Source: Oceanicola sp. D3
GTDB lineage: Bacteria > Pseudomonadota > Alphaproteobacteria > Rhodobacterales > Rhodobacteraceae
Reading direction: 5' to 3'
DNA length: 64,000 nt
NCBI RefSeq assembly: GCF_006351965.1
Contig: NZ_CP040932.1
Location: 2,790,001 to 2,854,000 of the forward strand
Below, one piece after another: positions 51,037-57,347 of this stretch. Every line of letters begins with the position of its first letter. Position 1 is the first letter of the stretch. The translations under genes and the position numbers were made by a program. Below the pieces are notes generated by a model, which ran no database searches, had not been told where the DNA came from, and saw nothing but the letters and a program-made list of their open reading frames with translations.

Positions 51037-51062
51037 TGAAGCCACCTTCTCAAGAGGCTTCA
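51037..51062 (+). promoter_or_regulatory. inverted repeat upstream of the TPR regulator gene
   Basis: Perfect 7-base arms TGAAGCC and GGCTTCA are separated by 12 bases, with a GGTTAACC palindrome just downstream at 51066-51073 and a second GTTAAC at 51012-51017. The cluster lies 26-90 bases before the regulator start, a sensible place for an operator, possibly autoregulatory. Confidence 0.4.
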
Positions 51063-51099
51063 TCTGGTTAACCTTACGTCATTGCCAGGGGGACGTCTG

Positions 51100-52818
51100 A
51101 TGACTCAGCCGCAGGAAGCACAGCAGCCAAGCGCCGCGACACAGGCTGTCGATGTGCGGGTCATGTGCATCCGGCTATTCGGGGTGTTCGCGCTATCTTG
51201 GGAAGACGGCGATGATATTCGCGTCCGTTCCACCAAGATCCGCGCCATGCTGGCCATGCTGGCCACGGCACCCGAAGGCACCCGCACCCGCGCCTGGCTG
51301 CAAGATATGCTCTGGGGCCGCTCCGGGCACGAGCATGGCCGGGCCTCCCTGCGCCGCGCCTTGACCGACCTGCGCAACCTCTTCGGCGAAGATTTCAACG
51401 ATCTCTTCGAGGTAAACAATTCCGAGATCAGCCTGCACCTCGAACGCATCCGCATCACCGGCACGCTCGAAGATGGCGACTTTCTAGAAGGCACCGAAAT
51501 CGCCGAAGACGGCTTTGAAGAGTGGATCGAGGGCCAGCGCAAAAGCAACCGCACCGTGCTTTCAGCCGTGGCCCGCACAAGGCCCGGGCGCGTGGCGCAG
51601 GAAATCCTCAATCGCGGGATTCACCTGCAACCCTCCATCGCCATCCTGCCCTTCGCCACTGCGCGTGGCTATCAGGGGCCGGTGCAGCTGGGCGACATGC
51701 TCTCCGAAGAGATCAGTCGGTCGCTCTCACGCTCGCACATGCTCGATGTGATCTCGCACCTCTCCTGCCGCACGCTCGATGCCCGCTCGGTGGCGCTGGA
51801 AGAGATCCGCGACAAGCTCGACGCCGATTACGTGGTCGCCGGAAACTACCGCACCCAAGGCGACAAGATGATGCTCAACGCCGACTTCATCGACATCAAG
51901 ACAGGCCGCATCAGCTGGACCCGCGAGCTGACCAGCTCGATGTCTGATTTTCTGCGCGGCGGCGACGAGCTGGTCGGTGGCCTCTCTGCCGAGATAGGCC
52001 GGGCGGTGATGGATACCTCGCTCGACCTTGCCGCCACCTCACCGCTGCCCGATGTCGACAGCCACGCCCTGCTGATGAGCTCGATCACCCTCATGCACCG
52101 GCTTTCGGTGCAAAGCTTCGCCAAGTCCAAGACCTATCTCGAAGAGGTCATCGAGCGCGTGCCCGATAGCCCCGTGCTGCACAGCTGGATGGGCAAGTGG
52201 CATGTGCTCTCGGTGGTTCAGGGCTGGTCGTCGCGGCTGGATGAAGATGCCGTCAATGCCCGCGTCCACACCGCCCGCGCGCTCGATCTCCAGCCCGACA
52301 GCTCCTTTGCGCTCACCATGGACGGGCTGGTCAACAACAACCTGCTCAAGCGCCACGACGTTGCCATGCGCCGGTTTGACGAGGCTATCGAGCTGGATCC
52401 GAACAACGCCATGGCATGGCTGCTCAAGGGCGTGCTCCACGCCTTCACCGACGATGGCAGCAAGGCCGTGACCTTCACCAACCGTGCCCGGGCGCTCTCG
52501 CCGCTCGATCCGCAGGCCTATTTCTATGATGCGCTCTCCGCCGCCGCCAAGCTGACGGCGGGCGACCCGGAGGGCGCGCTGGCGCTGGCCGATCGCTCGA
52601 TCCGCGCCAACCGCCGCCACGCCTCCAGCCAGCGCGCGCGCGTGGTGGCGCTGCACCAGCTCGGCCGTATGCAGGAGGCCCGCGAAACCGCGGAAACCCT
52701 GCTGCGGGCCGACCCGTCCTTCACCATCAGAAATTACCTCAGGGATCACCCCGCCGCCGATTACGAGAGCGGGCGAACCTGGGCCAGCGCCCTTCGGGAG
52801 GCTGGAATACCGAACTAG
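51100..52818 (+). CDS. winged-helix transcriptional regulator with TolB-like and TPR domains
   Basis: A 572-residue protein starting at the ATG at 51100 behind AGGGGGA. The N-terminal 100 residues or so form an OmpR/SARP-like DNA-binding domain (IRLFGVFALSWEDG, STKIRAMLAMLAT, LQDMLWG, RASLRRALTDLRNLFG). A TolB-like alpha/beta domain begins near 177 (PSIAILPFATARG, LGDMLSEEISRSLSR, LDADYVVAGNYR). TPR-like helical repeats run from about 320 to 560 (FDEAIELDPNNAMAWLLKGVLHAF). Such proteins are cytoplasmic regulators that sense protein partners or ligands through the C-terminal part. The next gene starts 21 bases later, so it probably controls, and is co-transcribed with, the haloperoxidase-protease-peroxidase-like genes. 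Confidence 0.85.
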   Translation: MTQPQEAQQPSAATQAVDVRVMCIRLFGVFALSWEDGDDIRVRSTKIRAMLAMLATAPEGTRTRAWLQDMLWGRSGHEHGRASLRRALTDLRNLFGEDFNDLFEVNNSEISLHLERIRITGTLEDGDFLEGTEIAEDGFEEWIEGQRKSNRTVLSAVARTRPGRVAQEILNRGIHLQPSIAILPFATARGYQGPVQLGDMLSEEISRSLSRSHMLDVISHLSCRTLDARSVALEEIRDKLDADYVVAGNYRTQGDKMMLNADFIDIKTGRISWTRELTSSMSDFLRGGDELVGGLSAEIGRAVMDTSLDLAATSPLPDVDSHALLMSSITLMHRLSVQSFAKSKTYLEEVIERVPDSPVLHSWMGKWHVLSVVQGWSSRLDEDAVNARVHTARALDLQPDSSFALTMDGLVNNNLLKRHDVAMRRFDEAIELDPNNAMAWLLKGVLHAFTDDGSKAVTFTNRARALSPLDPQAYFYDALSAAAKLTAGDPEGALALADRSIRANRRHASSQRARVVALHQLGRMQEARETAETLLRADPSFTIRNYLRDHPAADYESGRTWASALREAGIPN

Positions 52819-52839
52819 TTCAACAAGGGGATTTTCAGG

Positions 52840-54024
52840 ATGTCTATTGCTTCAACTTCCGCCGGAGTGGCCGGTGTTGCTGGCGTCGCGGGTGTCGCGG
52901 GTGTCGCTGGGGTGGCAGGCGTTGCCGGGGTTGCTGGCGTTGCCGGTGTGGCAGGTGTCGCCGGGGTTGCCGGGGTTGCCGGTGTCGCGGGCGTGGCTGG
53001 CGTGGGCGGCGGCTACTCGCCCGGCATGTCCGGCTCGATCCTCACCAGCCGGGACGGGATTGCCGGGCCCTACGAGGCCCTCGCCAACGCCCCCACGCAA
53101 ATGCCCGCCAATGATGTGGCAACCCTCTCCGAATGGGGCACCACCGAGCGCCTCAACATGATCCTCGGCGAGGTCGTCGGCTCCATCGGCGTCACCGGAT
53201 CGGGCGAGAGCTGCGCGGCCTTCCACCTCGAAACCTCCGGCGGCGATGCCGATACCCCGCCCGGAACCGAATACAAACGTCTCGTCAAACTCACCCGCCC
53301 CTCCCCCGATGATTTCCTCGCCCAAACGGCGGTGGTGCACAACTACGCCGACCTGCGGGTCGACCGGGCCGCGGAGATCTTCAATCAGGTCGGCTACGCC
53401 ATGACCTTCTTCCAACCCATTCTCGGGCTGCGGGCGGGGATCCACAAATATACGCTGGAGCTGATCGGCGTGGTTCAGGCGGCGACCATCAGCACCGAGA
53501 TGCAGTTCAAGCAGCGCCTCGCCTGCCTGCGCCCCGATCGCTTCTCGGCCCAGATGATGCCGCTAATCCCCACGCCCGGCCACGGCGCCCTGCCCTCGGG
53601 CCACGCCACCGAAAGCCACTGTGTCGCCCGGCTGCTGATCCATCTGCTGAAGGGCAAGGCCGCCCTGCCCAAGCAAAGCGAGCTGCTGATGGCCACGGCA
53701 GCGCGCATCACCGTCAACCGCACGGTCGCCGGGGTGCACTTTCCGGCAGACAACTTCGCCGGGGCCACGCTTGGCTTCACGCTGGCCGATTATCTCGCCC
53801 AGCGGGCCGGAGCCAACGGCGCGGCGGTGTCGGAGGCAGAGTTCAACGGCGTCGGCATCGGCGATGAAGACTATCACCTGTCCAAGGTCTACGACCTCGC
53901 GGCGGATGCGCCCAAGGCCCACGGCACGCTGATCACACGCGGCGCAGCCGTGGCCGGGGTGTCACCCGCGCCGATGCTCTCCTGGCTCTGGTCGGAGGCG
54001 CGGAAGGAATGGGCAGACGCCTGA
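52840..54024 (+). CDS. vanadium haloperoxidase / PAP2-type acid phosphatase family protein with GVA repeats
   Basis: A 394-residue protein. The full family signature is present: K224 and R231 in KQRLACLRP, PSGH at 252-255, then R294, H300 and D304 in RTVAGVHFPAD. These residues bind vanadate in haloperoxidases or phosphate in PAP2 phosphatases; PTPGHGALPSGHATESH looks closer to the haloperoxidase-like branch. There is no signal peptide or membrane helix, so it is soluble and cytoplasmic unless exported by a non-Sec route. The N-terminus carries 15 tandem GVA tripeptides (residues 9-53). It is followed after 42 bases by the subtilase gene. The substrate is unknown. Confidence 0.82.
   Translation: MSIASTSAGVAGVAGVAGVAGVAGVAGVAGVAGVAGVAGVAGVAGVAGVAGVAGVGGGYSPGMSGSILTSRDGIAGPYEALANAPTQMPANDVATLSEWGTTERLNMILGEVVGSIGVTGSGESCAAFHLETSGGDADTPPGTEYKRLVKLTRPSPDDFLAQTAVVHNYADLRVDRAAEIFNQVGYAMTFFQPILGLRAGIHKYTLELIGVVQAATISTEMQFKQRLACLRPDRFSAQMMPLIPTPGHGALPSGHATESHCVARLLIHLLKGKAALPKQSELLMATAARITVNRTVAGVHFPADNFAGATLGFTLADYLAQRAGANGAAVSEAEFNGVGIGDEDYHLSKVYDLAADAPKAHGTLITRGAAVAGVSPAPMLSWLWSEARKEWADA
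52864..52998 (+). repeat. 15 tandem 9-base units encoding GVA
   Basis: The peptide repeat is perfect (15 Gly-Val-Ala units), but codon third positions vary from unit to unit. The array has therefore been kept by selection on the protein, or is old, and is not a fresh slippage product. A Gly-Val-Gly-Gly-Gly hinge ends it. Confidence 0.92.
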
Positions 54025-54066
54025 TCCTTCGCCCCTGCCCTCCCCACCCCAACAAAGGCCCGCGCC

Positions 54067-56292
54067 ATGCCCGACACGCTCAGCTTCACCCCCGAGGACG
54101 ACCCTGAAAGCGTCACCGCGATGTTCGATCCCTACTCGGCATGGTCGCTCCGCTACGCGCTGGAGTTCGACCTGACCGCAACCGAAGACCGCGATGATCC
54201 GCAGGACTTCCGCTACATGTTCACCGTCGACACCATGCAGGCGGGTGACATCGAGGATCTGCCCGAGCCCTTCCGCATGGAGGGCGACACTGACGTGGTG
54301 CTGCTCACCCGGTCGGTCAACATCGACGGCAATACCGAAAGCGCGCAGGGCACCTTCCAATCCATCGCGCCCTTTGACCCGGAGAAAAACAACTTCAGTC
54401 TGCTGGCCCCGGCCGAGGGCGGCAAGAGGCAGCTGGCGGCGCCGCCTGACATGGACGAGGCGGGCGAGCTGGCAGAGGCCGAGGCTGAGGAAGCCGAAGA
54501 CGAGGCGCGCACAGCCTCGCGTGACACGCTCCGCTTTCGCGCTCCGCTGCGCAAGGTCTCCCTGCCCACCGGCACCCAGTGGGTGATGGAATACACCGCG
54601 CAGGGCCTGCCCGAAGCCACGGCAACCATCGTCGGCGTGATCGACGACGGCATCAACCCGGCCCACAGCGCCTTCCACGATGCGTCCGGCGGCACCCGGG
54701 TGGATTTTGCATGGGTGCAAGACGCCGCCGCGCCCACCGGCCCCACCACCGTGCCCTTCGGGCGCGAGCTGACCAAAGCAGAGATCGACGCCGAGCTTGC
54801 CGCAGGCCCCAAACCCGAGGTCGACCGTCTCGCCGCTCTCGGCCTTGGCGACTTTACCCGCGCGGGCGTGCATACCGTGGCCCAACGCCTCTCGCACGGC
54901 ACCCATGTCGCCTCGCTCGCGGCGGGCGACGGCCCAGACCATCTGCGCCTGCTCACCGTGCAACTGCCCGCCGCCGTCACCATGGCCACATCCGGGGCCT
55001 TCATGTCGCCCTTCGTGCTGGCGGGCGCGGCGCATATCCTTGACCGGGCCTGGCTGATGTCACTGGCCGAGGGCTTCCCGATCCCGGTGGTCATCAACTT
55101 TTCCTATTCGCTCTCCGGCGGGCCGCACAACGGGCTGCACTTTCTGGAGCGGGCGATTGATACGCTGGTGCAGGCCCATATCGAACGGCTGGCGCGGCAG
55201 TTCCCGACCAAGCCGGGGCGGGCCGAGGTGGAGGTGGTGCTGCCCTCCGGCAACCGGCTTCTGGCGCGCGGCCACGCCGAGGTGACAGGCGGCGCGGCTG
55301 GCCGCACTTCCAAAACCGCCCTCACCCTGCCTTGGCGCGTGCAGCCGGGGGATGAGAGCTCCAATTTCCTTGAGCTCTGGATGCCGCGCAACGCCGCCGG
55401 GGTGGAACTTTGGCTCACCCCGCCCGGCGGCACGCCCACACGCGTCACCGGCCTCAACGCCGCCCAGGCCGTGGTGATCCACGAGGCCGCAGACCCGACC
55501 GCCGTCATCGGGCGCATCTCGCTTGACCGGCAGAAGGGCCAGAAGGCGCTCGACGGCATCGCCCGCAAAAAGCGCGTGCTCATCGCCCTCGCCCCCTCCT
55601 GCATGCCCGCCGCCGTCGCCCGCCCCGGCGCGCCCTCCGGCCTCTGGACGGTGGAGCTGCGCGCGCGGATTTCCGAGGGCGAGCGTATCGAAGCCTGGAT
55701 CCAGCGCGATGACGCCCCCCTCGGCTACCGGCGACAGGGGCGGCAAAGCTACTTCGATGACCCGGCCTACCAGCGCTGGGATGCGATGGGCGGCGTGGCC
55801 GTCTATGATAGCGGCTCCTCAGTGGTAAAGCGCGAGGGCAGCCTCAACGGCATTGCAACCGGCCGGGCGAGCAAGGTGGTCGGCCCCTCGACAACGCGCG
55901 ACGAACGGCTGGCCAAGGGCTTTGCCGCGCTTGGCGATCTGCCCGGTGCGCCCGGCTATGCGCCTCTGGCCGGGCACCCTCCACGGGCCGCCGCGCCCTA
56001 TGCCGCCGCCGCCACCGCCCCGATGCGCAAGCCCGACCACTCCGCCGAGGGCGACCGTTCCGCCGTCTGCCCCGGCGTGATCGGCGCCGGTGCGGCCTCG
56101 GGCAGCCGGATGCCGATGAACGGAAGCTCCGTCGCCGCGCCGCAATACGCGCGCTATCTGGCCAACACCTACCTCGGCCTCGCGCCTCCCGGCCCCGCTC
56201 TCTGGCCAGCGGCCAACGAAACCCAGCATGTGGCGCGGCTTGGTGCCCGCGCCCTCCCCCCGCAGCCGGGCAGCGTGGCCGGGCAGCGATAG
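54067..56292 (+). CDS. subtilisin-family (S8) serine protease with a long inserted domain
   Basis: A 741-residue protein. The catalytic triad is readable: D193 in VGVIDDGIN, H277 in SHGTHVASLAAGDG and S688 in NGSSVAAPQ, with the oxyanion Asn in LPSGNRLLARG (near 391). The His-Ser distance is about 411 residues against roughly 160 in subtilisin. The extra segment includes a beta-rich part (LELWMPRNAAGVELWLTPPGG) like a jelly-roll insertion. An N-terminal region of about 185 residues, with an acidic low-complexity stretch, may be a propeptide. No signal peptide is seen. The protease could mature or degrade its operon partners. The start lacks a strong ribosome site. Confidence 0.87.
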   Translation: MPDTLSFTPEDDPESVTAMFDPYSAWSLRYALEFDLTATEDRDDPQDFRYMFTVDTMQAGDIEDLPEPFRMEGDTDVVLLTRSVNIDGNTESAQGTFQSIAPFDPEKNNFSLLAPAEGGKRQLAAPPDMDEAGELAEAEAEEAEDEARTASRDTLRFRAPLRKVSLPTGTQWVMEYTAQGLPEATATIVGVIDDGINPAHSAFHDASGGTRVDFAWVQDAAAPTGPTTVPFGRELTKAEIDAELAAGPKPEVDRLAALGLGDFTRAGVHTVAQRLSHGTHVASLAAGDGPDHLRLLTVQLPAAVTMATSGAFMSPFVLAGAAHILDRAWLMSLAEGFPIPVVINFSYSLSGGPHNGLHFLERAIDTLVQAHIERLARQFPTKPGRAEVEVVLPSGNRLLARGHAEVTGGAAGRTSKTALTLPWRVQPGDESSNFLELWMPRNAAGVELWLTPPGGTPTRVTGLNAAQAVVIHEAADPTAVIGRISLDRQKGQKALDGIARKKRVLIALAPSCMPAAVARPGAPSGLWTVELRARISEGERIEAWIQRDDAPLGYRRQGRQSYFDDPAYQRWDAMGGVAVYDSGSSVVKREGSLNGIATGRASKVVGPSTTRDERLAKGFAALGDLPGAPGYAPLAGHPPRAAAPYAAAATAPMRKPDHSAEGDRSAVCPGVIGAGAASGSRMPMNGSSVAAPQYARYLANTYLGLAPPGPALWPAANETQHVARLGARALPPQPGSVAGQR

Positions 56293-56351
56293 TTAATGCA
56301 GCGCATATCGGCCCAATCGTATTTTCAGGGGCCAGTTGAAGGACATTTGAG

Positions 56352-57347
56352 TTGAAGATCTGTCTCGCCAACGGAGACGTCGGGCCCCGCCCCGACACCG
56401 CACCCGACACCGATACAGCACCGGATTGGGCGCTTCGTCCGGGGTATTTCTTTCCCGATGCCGCCGATGAAGAGCGGCTGGGGCTCAACCAGCTGCTCAC
56501 CCGGCTCGGCAACGCGATGGATGGCGAGGAGATCGCATGGGGCGGCACCCGCACCGAGGCGCTGGCCCTTGTGCCGCTCGCCGCGCAGGCCGCGCTCTGC
56601 TTCGTCACCACCGAACGCGCCCGCATCAGCCCACCCGACTTTGCCAGTGAGGCCCTGCTGCCGCTCGACCGCGAAGCAATGTCGCATTACCTCGTGCAGG
56701 CCACCCCCTTTGCCCCCCGGCCCGACCCGGTGCTGCCGCCGCCCGCCACGCGGGTGCAACAGGCGCTCGCTGCCCTGCCCGATCCGGCCGCCGCACTGCA
56801 CTGGCTGCTGCTCAACCGGCTGCTGCCCGCGCTCTGCGATGGTGCCATGGTCTCTGCCGTGCGCGAGGCCCGCGCGCCGCTCTTCACCAATGCACCCGAG
56901 GGGCCGGCGATGCCGCTGGAGTTTGCAGCGGCGCTGCTCTCGGCGGCCCCCTTCCGCCAACCCTCGTCGCGCCACCTTGCCATCAACTACTGGCTGAACA
57001 TTCCCACCGCGCAGGGCGTGCTGACGGCCCTGCGCCAGTCCGATGCCACACGCAAAGCACGCTTCCCCCTGATGCCCCGCCTCGAACCCGCCGATCTCAG
57101 TCGGGGCGATGCAGGCGCGGTGCTGGTCGAGGACGAGTTGCACAAGCGCACGCCGCTGTGGTTTTACCTTTGGCGCGAAAAGGCGCTGCTGGCCTCCGAA
57201 GGGCGGCTTGGCCCGCTAGGTGCACGGCTGCTGGCCGAAGGCATCGTCGGCCTCATCGCCCACGCAGGCAACGCCGCGATGGCGCATGATGAAAACAGCC
57301 CCCCGCCCGAAGGCACGCTGCAGGCTTGGGAGACGGCACTGGCCTGA
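56352..57347 (+). CDS. degenerate animal-type haem peroxidase-like protein, probably non-catalytic
   Basis: A 331-residue protein starting at TTG 56352, with AAGGA eight bases upstream. Several blocks match, in order, what I remember of bacterial animal-type haem peroxidases: PGYFFP with LLTRLGNAM (30-56), LHWLLLNRLLPALCD (149-163), MPLEFAAALLSAAPFR (187-202), NYWLNIPTAQGVLTAL (212-227) and PLWFYLWREKAL with LGPLGARLLAEGIVGLI (268-302). The distal QFxDHD motif is absent and the proximal RFGHS motif is replaced by RQPSSR, so haem binding is doubtful. The protein is also shorter than the usual 450-550 residues. It follows the subtilase gene by 59 bases, as the last gene of that operon. Confidence 0.55.
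   Translation: MKICLANGDVGPRPDTAPDTDTAPDWALRPGYFFPDAADEERLGLNQLLTRLGNAMDGEEIAWGGTRTEALALVPLAAQAALCFVTTERARISPPDFASEALLPLDREAMSHYLVQATPFAPRPDPVLPPPATRVQQALAALPDPAAALHWLLLNRLLPALCDGAMVSAVREARAPLFTNAPEGPAMPLEFAAALLSAAPFRQPSSRHLAINYWLNIPTAQGVLTALRQSDATRKARFPLMPRLEPADLSRGDAGAVLVEDELHKRTPLWFYLWREKALLASEGRLGPLGARLLAEGIVGLIAHAGNAAMAHDENSPPPEGTLQAWETALA

Follow-up and report, generated by a model that had tools for sequence, protein, structure and literature searches.

A unit-variable peptide repeat on a PAP2-fold enzyme linked to a TPR regulator and a subtilase in Proteobacteria

The main finding reported here is an N-terminal tandem repeat on a PAP2-fold enzyme, with a unit that varies between lineages. 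It is the most unusual feature of the gene module that carries it. The core of this module is three genes, a regulator (R), the enzyme (V) and a protease (S8), and a fourth, peroxidase-like gene (PX) is an optional add-on. All four are found in the window, by which we mean the whole 64,000-nucleotide stretch of Oceanicola sp. D3 that was analysed (NZ_CP040932.1, positions 2,790,001 to 2,854,000). The host genome is near Vannielia litorea, with V 91% identical. A preliminary description of this DNA reported four codirectional genes with gaps of 21, 42 and 59 bases, which an ORF check bears out. It also reported GVA repeats in V, which are real, with (GVA)15 at the N-terminus, but it passed over their significance. 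The features are as follows, in window coordinates.

51100-52818, + strand: R, regulator with a weak winged-helix-like N-terminus, a TolB/FlgO-like middle and a TPR C-terminus; HilA-like architecture
52840-54024, + strand: V, PAP2-fold enzyme (class A acid phosphatase/vanadium haloperoxidase superfamily) that has a tail of tandem repeats at its N-terminus
52864-53004, + strand: (GVA)15-GV tandem repeat of V, codon-scrambled, predicted disordered (pLDDT ~33)
53509-53755, + strand: active-site signature of V, K224-x6-R231-P, PSGH (S253, H255), NR294-x5-H300-x3-D304
54067-56292, + strand: S8, Csp-like subtilase with D193/H277/S688 and oxyanion N396, and a beta-rich domain inserted between His and Ser
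56352-57347, + strand: PX, TTG start, 331-aa animal haem peroxidase homologue with all haem-site motifs lost; optional

The best start for R is the ATG at 51100, which has a good Shine-Dalgarno sequence, and the TTG at 51082 is also possible. There is no start codon at 51037, the position given earlier. An inverted repeat (GAAGCC...GGCTTC, window 51038-51062) lies just upstream of R and is a possible operator or terminator.

A simple repeat score finds a tandem peptide at the N-terminus of 145 of 148 V ORFs. The same score is positive for 1 of 149 R (a run of Ns), 1 of 146 S8, 0 of 27 PX and 4 of 944 neighbour genes. The unit is specific to the lineage. It is GVA in the window and GVT or GVS in congeners. 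Other loci have GGV, QG, AGK, NNS, RS, KS, GIA, AFG, SAY, NAE, SFN, LQS, GGGQ, TAM, RAQ, SGGL, GWT, DAR, GGF and others, for a total of 70 distinct units. The period is 3 residues in 119 of 139 arrays, 4 in 13 and 2 in 5, and the median copy number is about 9. On a tree of the V catalytic domain (132 leaves, 67 units) the unit has changed at least 78 times. Genomes with several modules almost always have a different unit in each, such as GGGQ/TAM/GPH in G331 and NAY/GHT/NSS in G316. In G346, two of three modules share GGH.

As amino acids, neighbouring units have 99.5% identity, and imperfect units occur in only 9 of 140 arrays. Their codons are another matter. A codon is repeated from one unit to the next in 25.9% of cases. 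Shuffling the codons within each array gives 34.4% (z -12.6), and drawing them by the codon usage elsewhere in the gene gives 43.6% (z -20). Since the units are nearly identical as protein but their codons are scrambled beyond chance, the repeat is kept as protein. The scrambling speaks against both a phase-variation switch and a recently expanded microsatellite. Taken with the identity of the units, it argues for selection on exact periodicity with avoidance of repeats at the DNA level. The tail is an extreme case where the unit can be almost anything and the copies match in protein yet differ in DNA.

Four other explanations of the tail were rejected. A contingency locus would be expected to behave differently, since the units are whole codons, DNA repetition is avoided and Phaeobacter strains differ by only +/-1 unit. 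A strain-level barcode does not work because Phaeobacter gallaeciensis, P. inhibens and P. piscinae all have the one unit SFN, and what shifts in this genus is only the number of copies (4-6). A defined secondary structure is at odds with AlphaFold, which makes the tail of the window V disordered (pLDDT ~33) ahead of a confident domain, and with units that span GGX to NNS, KS and SAY. The tail is also not a mark placed on other proteins, since the GVA array occurs once in the host genome.

One could instead suppose that the repeat drives clustering or anchoring of V in a condensate, fibril or scaffold. The unit would be free to drift, S8 would release V, and R would be merely a local transcription factor. 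The predicted disorder is consistent with this, as is a conserved periodicity with unconstrained chemistry (charged, aromatic or glycine-rich units). However, the near-perfect identity of the units exceeds what low complexity needs. It is also R, and not the V segment flanking the repeat, that diverges when the unit changes, although spread-out recombination could yield an association with R. We consider this scenario somewhat unlikely. A different possibility is protection from degradation. Gly-Ala repeats in EBNA1 block or tune degradation, and the low-complexity N-terminus of V could do the same against an AAA+ protease or S8, which would set the half-life of V. The protease is always adjacent, and it is the repetitiveness rather than the chemistry that is conserved. 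Inexact low complexity would suffice for this purpose, yet so few of the arrays contain imperfect units that we find it quite improbable.

Of 391 Rhodobacterales genomes, 146 were positive in a search with a profile of V, and V also occurs in other Proteobacteria. The module thus occurs in over a third of the sampled Rhodobacterales genomes; it appears to have no described function, and its members are annotated separately. On Phaeobacter and other plasmids, for example, R is a 'winged helix-turn-helix domain-containing protein', V a 'phosphatase PAP2 family protein' and S8 an 'S8 family serine peptidase'. Taking all Proteobacteria together, the module has a scattered occurrence (18 of 398, with Rhodobacterales making up half). 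It is also found in the Rhizobiales and Burkholderiales, and there are plasmid-borne copies in Phaeobacter, Rhizobium, Paracoccus, Caballeronia and others.

Among 58 whole-genome regions R adjoins V in all 58 and the S8 family does so in 56. The two regions without the usual S8 belong to a subtype with RS/KS repeats, and in L035, a relative of this subtype, a different S8-family protease adjoins V. The 80 named loci, which come from alpha-, beta- and gammaproteobacteria, all have R, and 79 have S8; the exception lies at a contig end. For both sets together this makes R beside V in 138 of 138 and S8 in 135 of 138, counts that are conditional on V since the regions were picked by V, and that come from regions that are not all independent, as the sets may overlap (e.g. 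L025 and L171, Actibacterium). When S8 was searched for independently, 111 of the 113 positive genomes also had V, and the copy numbers largely match. All three genes are codirectional in 105 loci. R is reversed relative to V in 37, and in 13 of those S8 is reversed relative to V too. Every Vannielia-group genome that was fetched has all four genes at about 70-85% identity. The presence of the four-gene set in every congener fetched and of the core in more than 130 loci means that the grouping is beyond chance. The neighbourhood comparison that the preliminary description proposed as its own test therefore favours it. Its four-gene set survives as a conserved functional set, and we found no description of a VHPO/PAP2-subtilase-TPR set or of such repeats in the open-access literature. 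The set is three genes, however, with the peroxidase-like gene optional.

A plasmid of Phaeobacter inhibens M647 (L228) is a natural loss of the module. R is split, S8 is shortened and V is slightly shortened there. That R and S8 are damaged together counts for R, V and S8 acting as one module. Among the neighbour genes of module loci there is no further conserved partner beyond lineage-specific neighbours, and no conserved exporter. It must be noted that L143 and L179 come from a record titled Oceanobacillus sp. HTM 045. Their modules are typically proteobacterial, so the record is probably mislabelled as a Firmicute, or else its assembly is a mixture. Two large fusions sit beside the RS-repeat subtype of the module. 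One joins trypsin-like, DNA/RNA endonuclease and S8 regions (L035:10508-14299), and the other joins an alpha/beta hydrolase to a trypsin-like region (L040:9846-12461).

R was earlier called a winged-helix/TolB-like/TPR regulator. A Pfam scan matches its TPRs and a FlgO/TolB_N-like region, and the winged helix is weak (Trans_reg_C at E 0.5). HilA/EilA-type regulators share the TolB-like and TPR regions, and NCBIfam NF009037 matches R with E 3e-10, which is below the cut-off of that model. Unlike them, R has no recurrent type III secretion neighbours and is strictly linked to V and S8.

Divergence in the TPRs of R is associated with a difference in the unit of the tail. When close relatives have different units the identity of the C-terminal TPRs often falls, from 0.97 to about 0.72 for GVA/GVT and from 1.0 to 0.5 for GLT/GVS. 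There is no such fall in close relatives with the same unit. The association was tested on 48 pairs that are separate in the phylogeny, of which 47 were usable. The pairs had been picked greedily by their V identity, and the identities of V and S8 served as covariates. The effect of a different unit is -0.113 on the C-terminal TPRs (0 of 5000 permutations), -0.075 on the N-terminal TPRs (p 0.0004) and -0.078 on the middle domain (p 0.001). In the same 47 pairs there is no significant effect on the winged helix of R (-0.004) or the post-repeat segment of V (-0.013), and no part of S8 shows a loss (+0.003 for the catalytic part, not significant). Since the V segment that adjoins the repeat is unaffected, this argues against pure linkage. 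There are points on the other side. The 3' end of R abuts the 5' end of V in most loci, so co-transfer by recombination could mimic co-evolution. The pairs L184/L200 and L149/L152 show drops at four-fold sites too, and some pairs are replacements of the whole of R. Among 9 independent pairs with divergent R, which are too few, the effect on R is not significant and the C-terminal part of S8 shows one instead. The unit changes GGV/GGI and GGF/GGL leave the C-terminus of R unchanged.

We tentatively argue, from sequence comparison, that R, V and S8 may form a self-contained regulatory module in which R's TPRs recognise the tail as their cognate ligand and S8 trims it. The ligand would be multivalent. 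It could be the tail on intact V, or short peptides that S8 clips from it. R would sense the amount or integrity of V and control the module. S8 would be the switch, removing the tail and thereby freeing or activating V, whose output would be a phosphatase activity or a vanadate-dependent oxidation. PX, where present, would be an extra effector, and in this genus a non-haem pseudoenzyme. No path of secretion or import is apparent, so signalling between cells is unlikely. Specific recognition would have little to go on in a unit of 3 residues, and this counts against the recognition model. A bolder claim, which we regard as doubtful, is that this is a new kind of regulatory or self-recognition module. 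The tail would be a multi-copy peptide code read by R and erased by the subtilase. Turnover of whole arrays would make new codes, codon scrambling would suppress DNA repetition, and genomes with several modules would keep their codes apart. The trio is carried by many marine and soil bacteria, and its tail looks like a swappable recognition tag. In the tail, selection for periodicity can be told apart from selection for sequence, and the peptide-code hypothesis is thereby open to a direct test.

A hyper-variable core in constant surroundings next to a subtilase also recalls a RiPP-like route, where a multi-core precursor is fused to V, the protease frees copies of the peptide and V or PX modifies them. 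The cluster does have oxidative or phosphoryl-transfer enzymes. However, GVA, GGV, GGL and many other units have no side chain for haloperoxidase chemistry and there is no exporter conserved beside the module, which makes this route highly improbable.

A precedent for the recognition model is found in the RRNPP(A) quorum-sensing systems (Rap-Phr, PlcR, NprR, Rgg). There, TPR receptors respond to short peptides that subtilisin-type proteases clip from propeptides, and some propeptides hold the pheromone in tandem copies (PMC11343458). Both systems have a TPR regulator and an adjacent, lineage-variable peptide source; where the RRNPP(A) regulators have a DNA-binding end, R has the weak winged-helix-like N-terminus. 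The TPRs of R are the type of domain that binds the ligand in these receptors. The differences are that the repeated peptide has a unit of 2-5 residues and forms the N-terminus of an enzyme that lacks a signal peptide, that the protease belongs to the module, that the hosts are Proteobacteria and that R has a TolB/FlgO-like middle domain. There is no small exported propeptide, since the repeat is the tail of the 394-aa V, which has no signal-like hydrophobic core. The module is therefore not classed as RRNPP signalling.

V is a PAP2 match in a Pfam scan (E 5e-10), with no VCPO_N domain. The complete VHPO/PAP2-type signature noted earlier (KX6RP/PSGH/RX5HX3D) is intact, and it is unchanged or almost unchanged across 45 relatives. 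The residues of V that match the vanadate-binding signature are K224, R231, P252/S253/H255, R294, H300 and D304, but this signature is common to PAP2 phosphatases and is not specific to haloperoxidases. These residues cannot decide between a phosphatase and a vanadium haloperoxidase. By fold, the predicted model of V comes closest to the class A acid phosphatases (Z 18.9, 18.7 and 18.6). The best fold match is to PhoN-type non-specific enzymes (7f17), over about 200 residues at Z 18-19 with an identical catalytic signature. Vanadium haloperoxidases share the superfamily and the ligand signature, but their fold is further off (Z up to 14.0) and V does not have their VCPO_N domain. V differs from the class A phosphatases in having the repeat tail and extra beta-rich segments, and in having no Sec-like N-terminus. 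Its N-terminus, MSIASTSA-(GVA)n, has no signal-like hydrophobic core outside the repeat. More generally, no Sec signal had been seen in any of the four proteins, and R, V, S8 and PX indeed have no strongly hydrophobic N-terminal or transmembrane stretch, this being judged from a scan for hydrophobic stretches.

The preliminary description suggested either a unit for regulated halogenation or oxidative defence that the protease matures, or a set of effectors for the adjoining T6SS. The intact PAP2/VHPO active site is in favour of the former, as are a VCPO_N chloroperoxidase beside the module in L028, a MauG-type peroxidase beside it in L025 and the intact haem peroxidases in L026, L028 and L179. 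Against it, the fold of V is nearer to the acid phosphatases, which leaves halogenation unproven, and the haem site of PX is lost in this genus. The adjoining ClpV-sized T6SS gene recurs only in Vannielia-group loci, so export by T6SS cannot be a general role. Both proposals leave the repeat unexplained, and there were 0 matches to PADLOC-DB models for R, V, S8 and PX. We think this model very unlikely, and argue that any halogenation or T6SS role would be confined to what V and PX put out in some lineages. A phage or defence origin was also rejected, as V has no match in phages and there is no PADLOC match. CATRA-type caspase/trypsin conflict systems were considered as a match, and nothing relevant was found in the open-access literature. 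The two peroxidase neighbours are a canonical vanadium chloroperoxidase (L028:8216-9958) and, in Actibacterium, a MauG/di-haem cytochrome c peroxidase-like protein (L025:16607-18406).

S8 was described as having an intact triad and a large insert, and both hold. Asp193, His277, Asn396 and Ser688 are invariant in 40 relatives. The nearest structures to the predicted model are CspB (E 2e-20), CspA and CspC, and the nearest proteins by sequence are also Csp. CspB has a jelly-roll domain inserted in its catalytic domain (PMC3567191), and the insert of S8, a beta-rich domain between His and Ser, sits where CspB has this jelly-roll. In the model there are strands at about 388-546, between N396 and S688, and the model as a whole matches CspB with an rmsd of 5.9-7.6. 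The hosts of S8 are not spore formers, unlike those of the clostridial Csp proteases. Its triad is intact as in CspB, in contrast to the pseudoprotease CspC.

For PX itself neither Pfam nor the PDB gives a match. Its homologues, to which it aligns, are animal haem peroxidases (PF03098) that are found in a like setting elsewhere. PX and all Vannielia copies have lost the distal His, catalytic Arg and proximal His motifs, so the earlier view of a peroxidase-like protein without a haem site is correct for all three motifs. The motifs FGQFIDHD, RNDEN and FRFGHxMV are kept in L026, L028 and L179, which have the module, and in L027, L029, L031 and L032, which do not have V. They are partly eroded in L025 and L030. 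The relatives of PX are a natural series from an intact haem peroxidase to a haem-less pseudoenzyme in one gene context. Where there is no V, the genes next to PX are papain-, trypsin-, caspase- and lipase-like. In L027, L029, L031 and L032 the neighbours of the intact peroxidase are caspase/GDSL, papain-like and trypsin-like multidomain proteins, and these protease-peroxidase neighbourhoods are possibly another gene set without a name.
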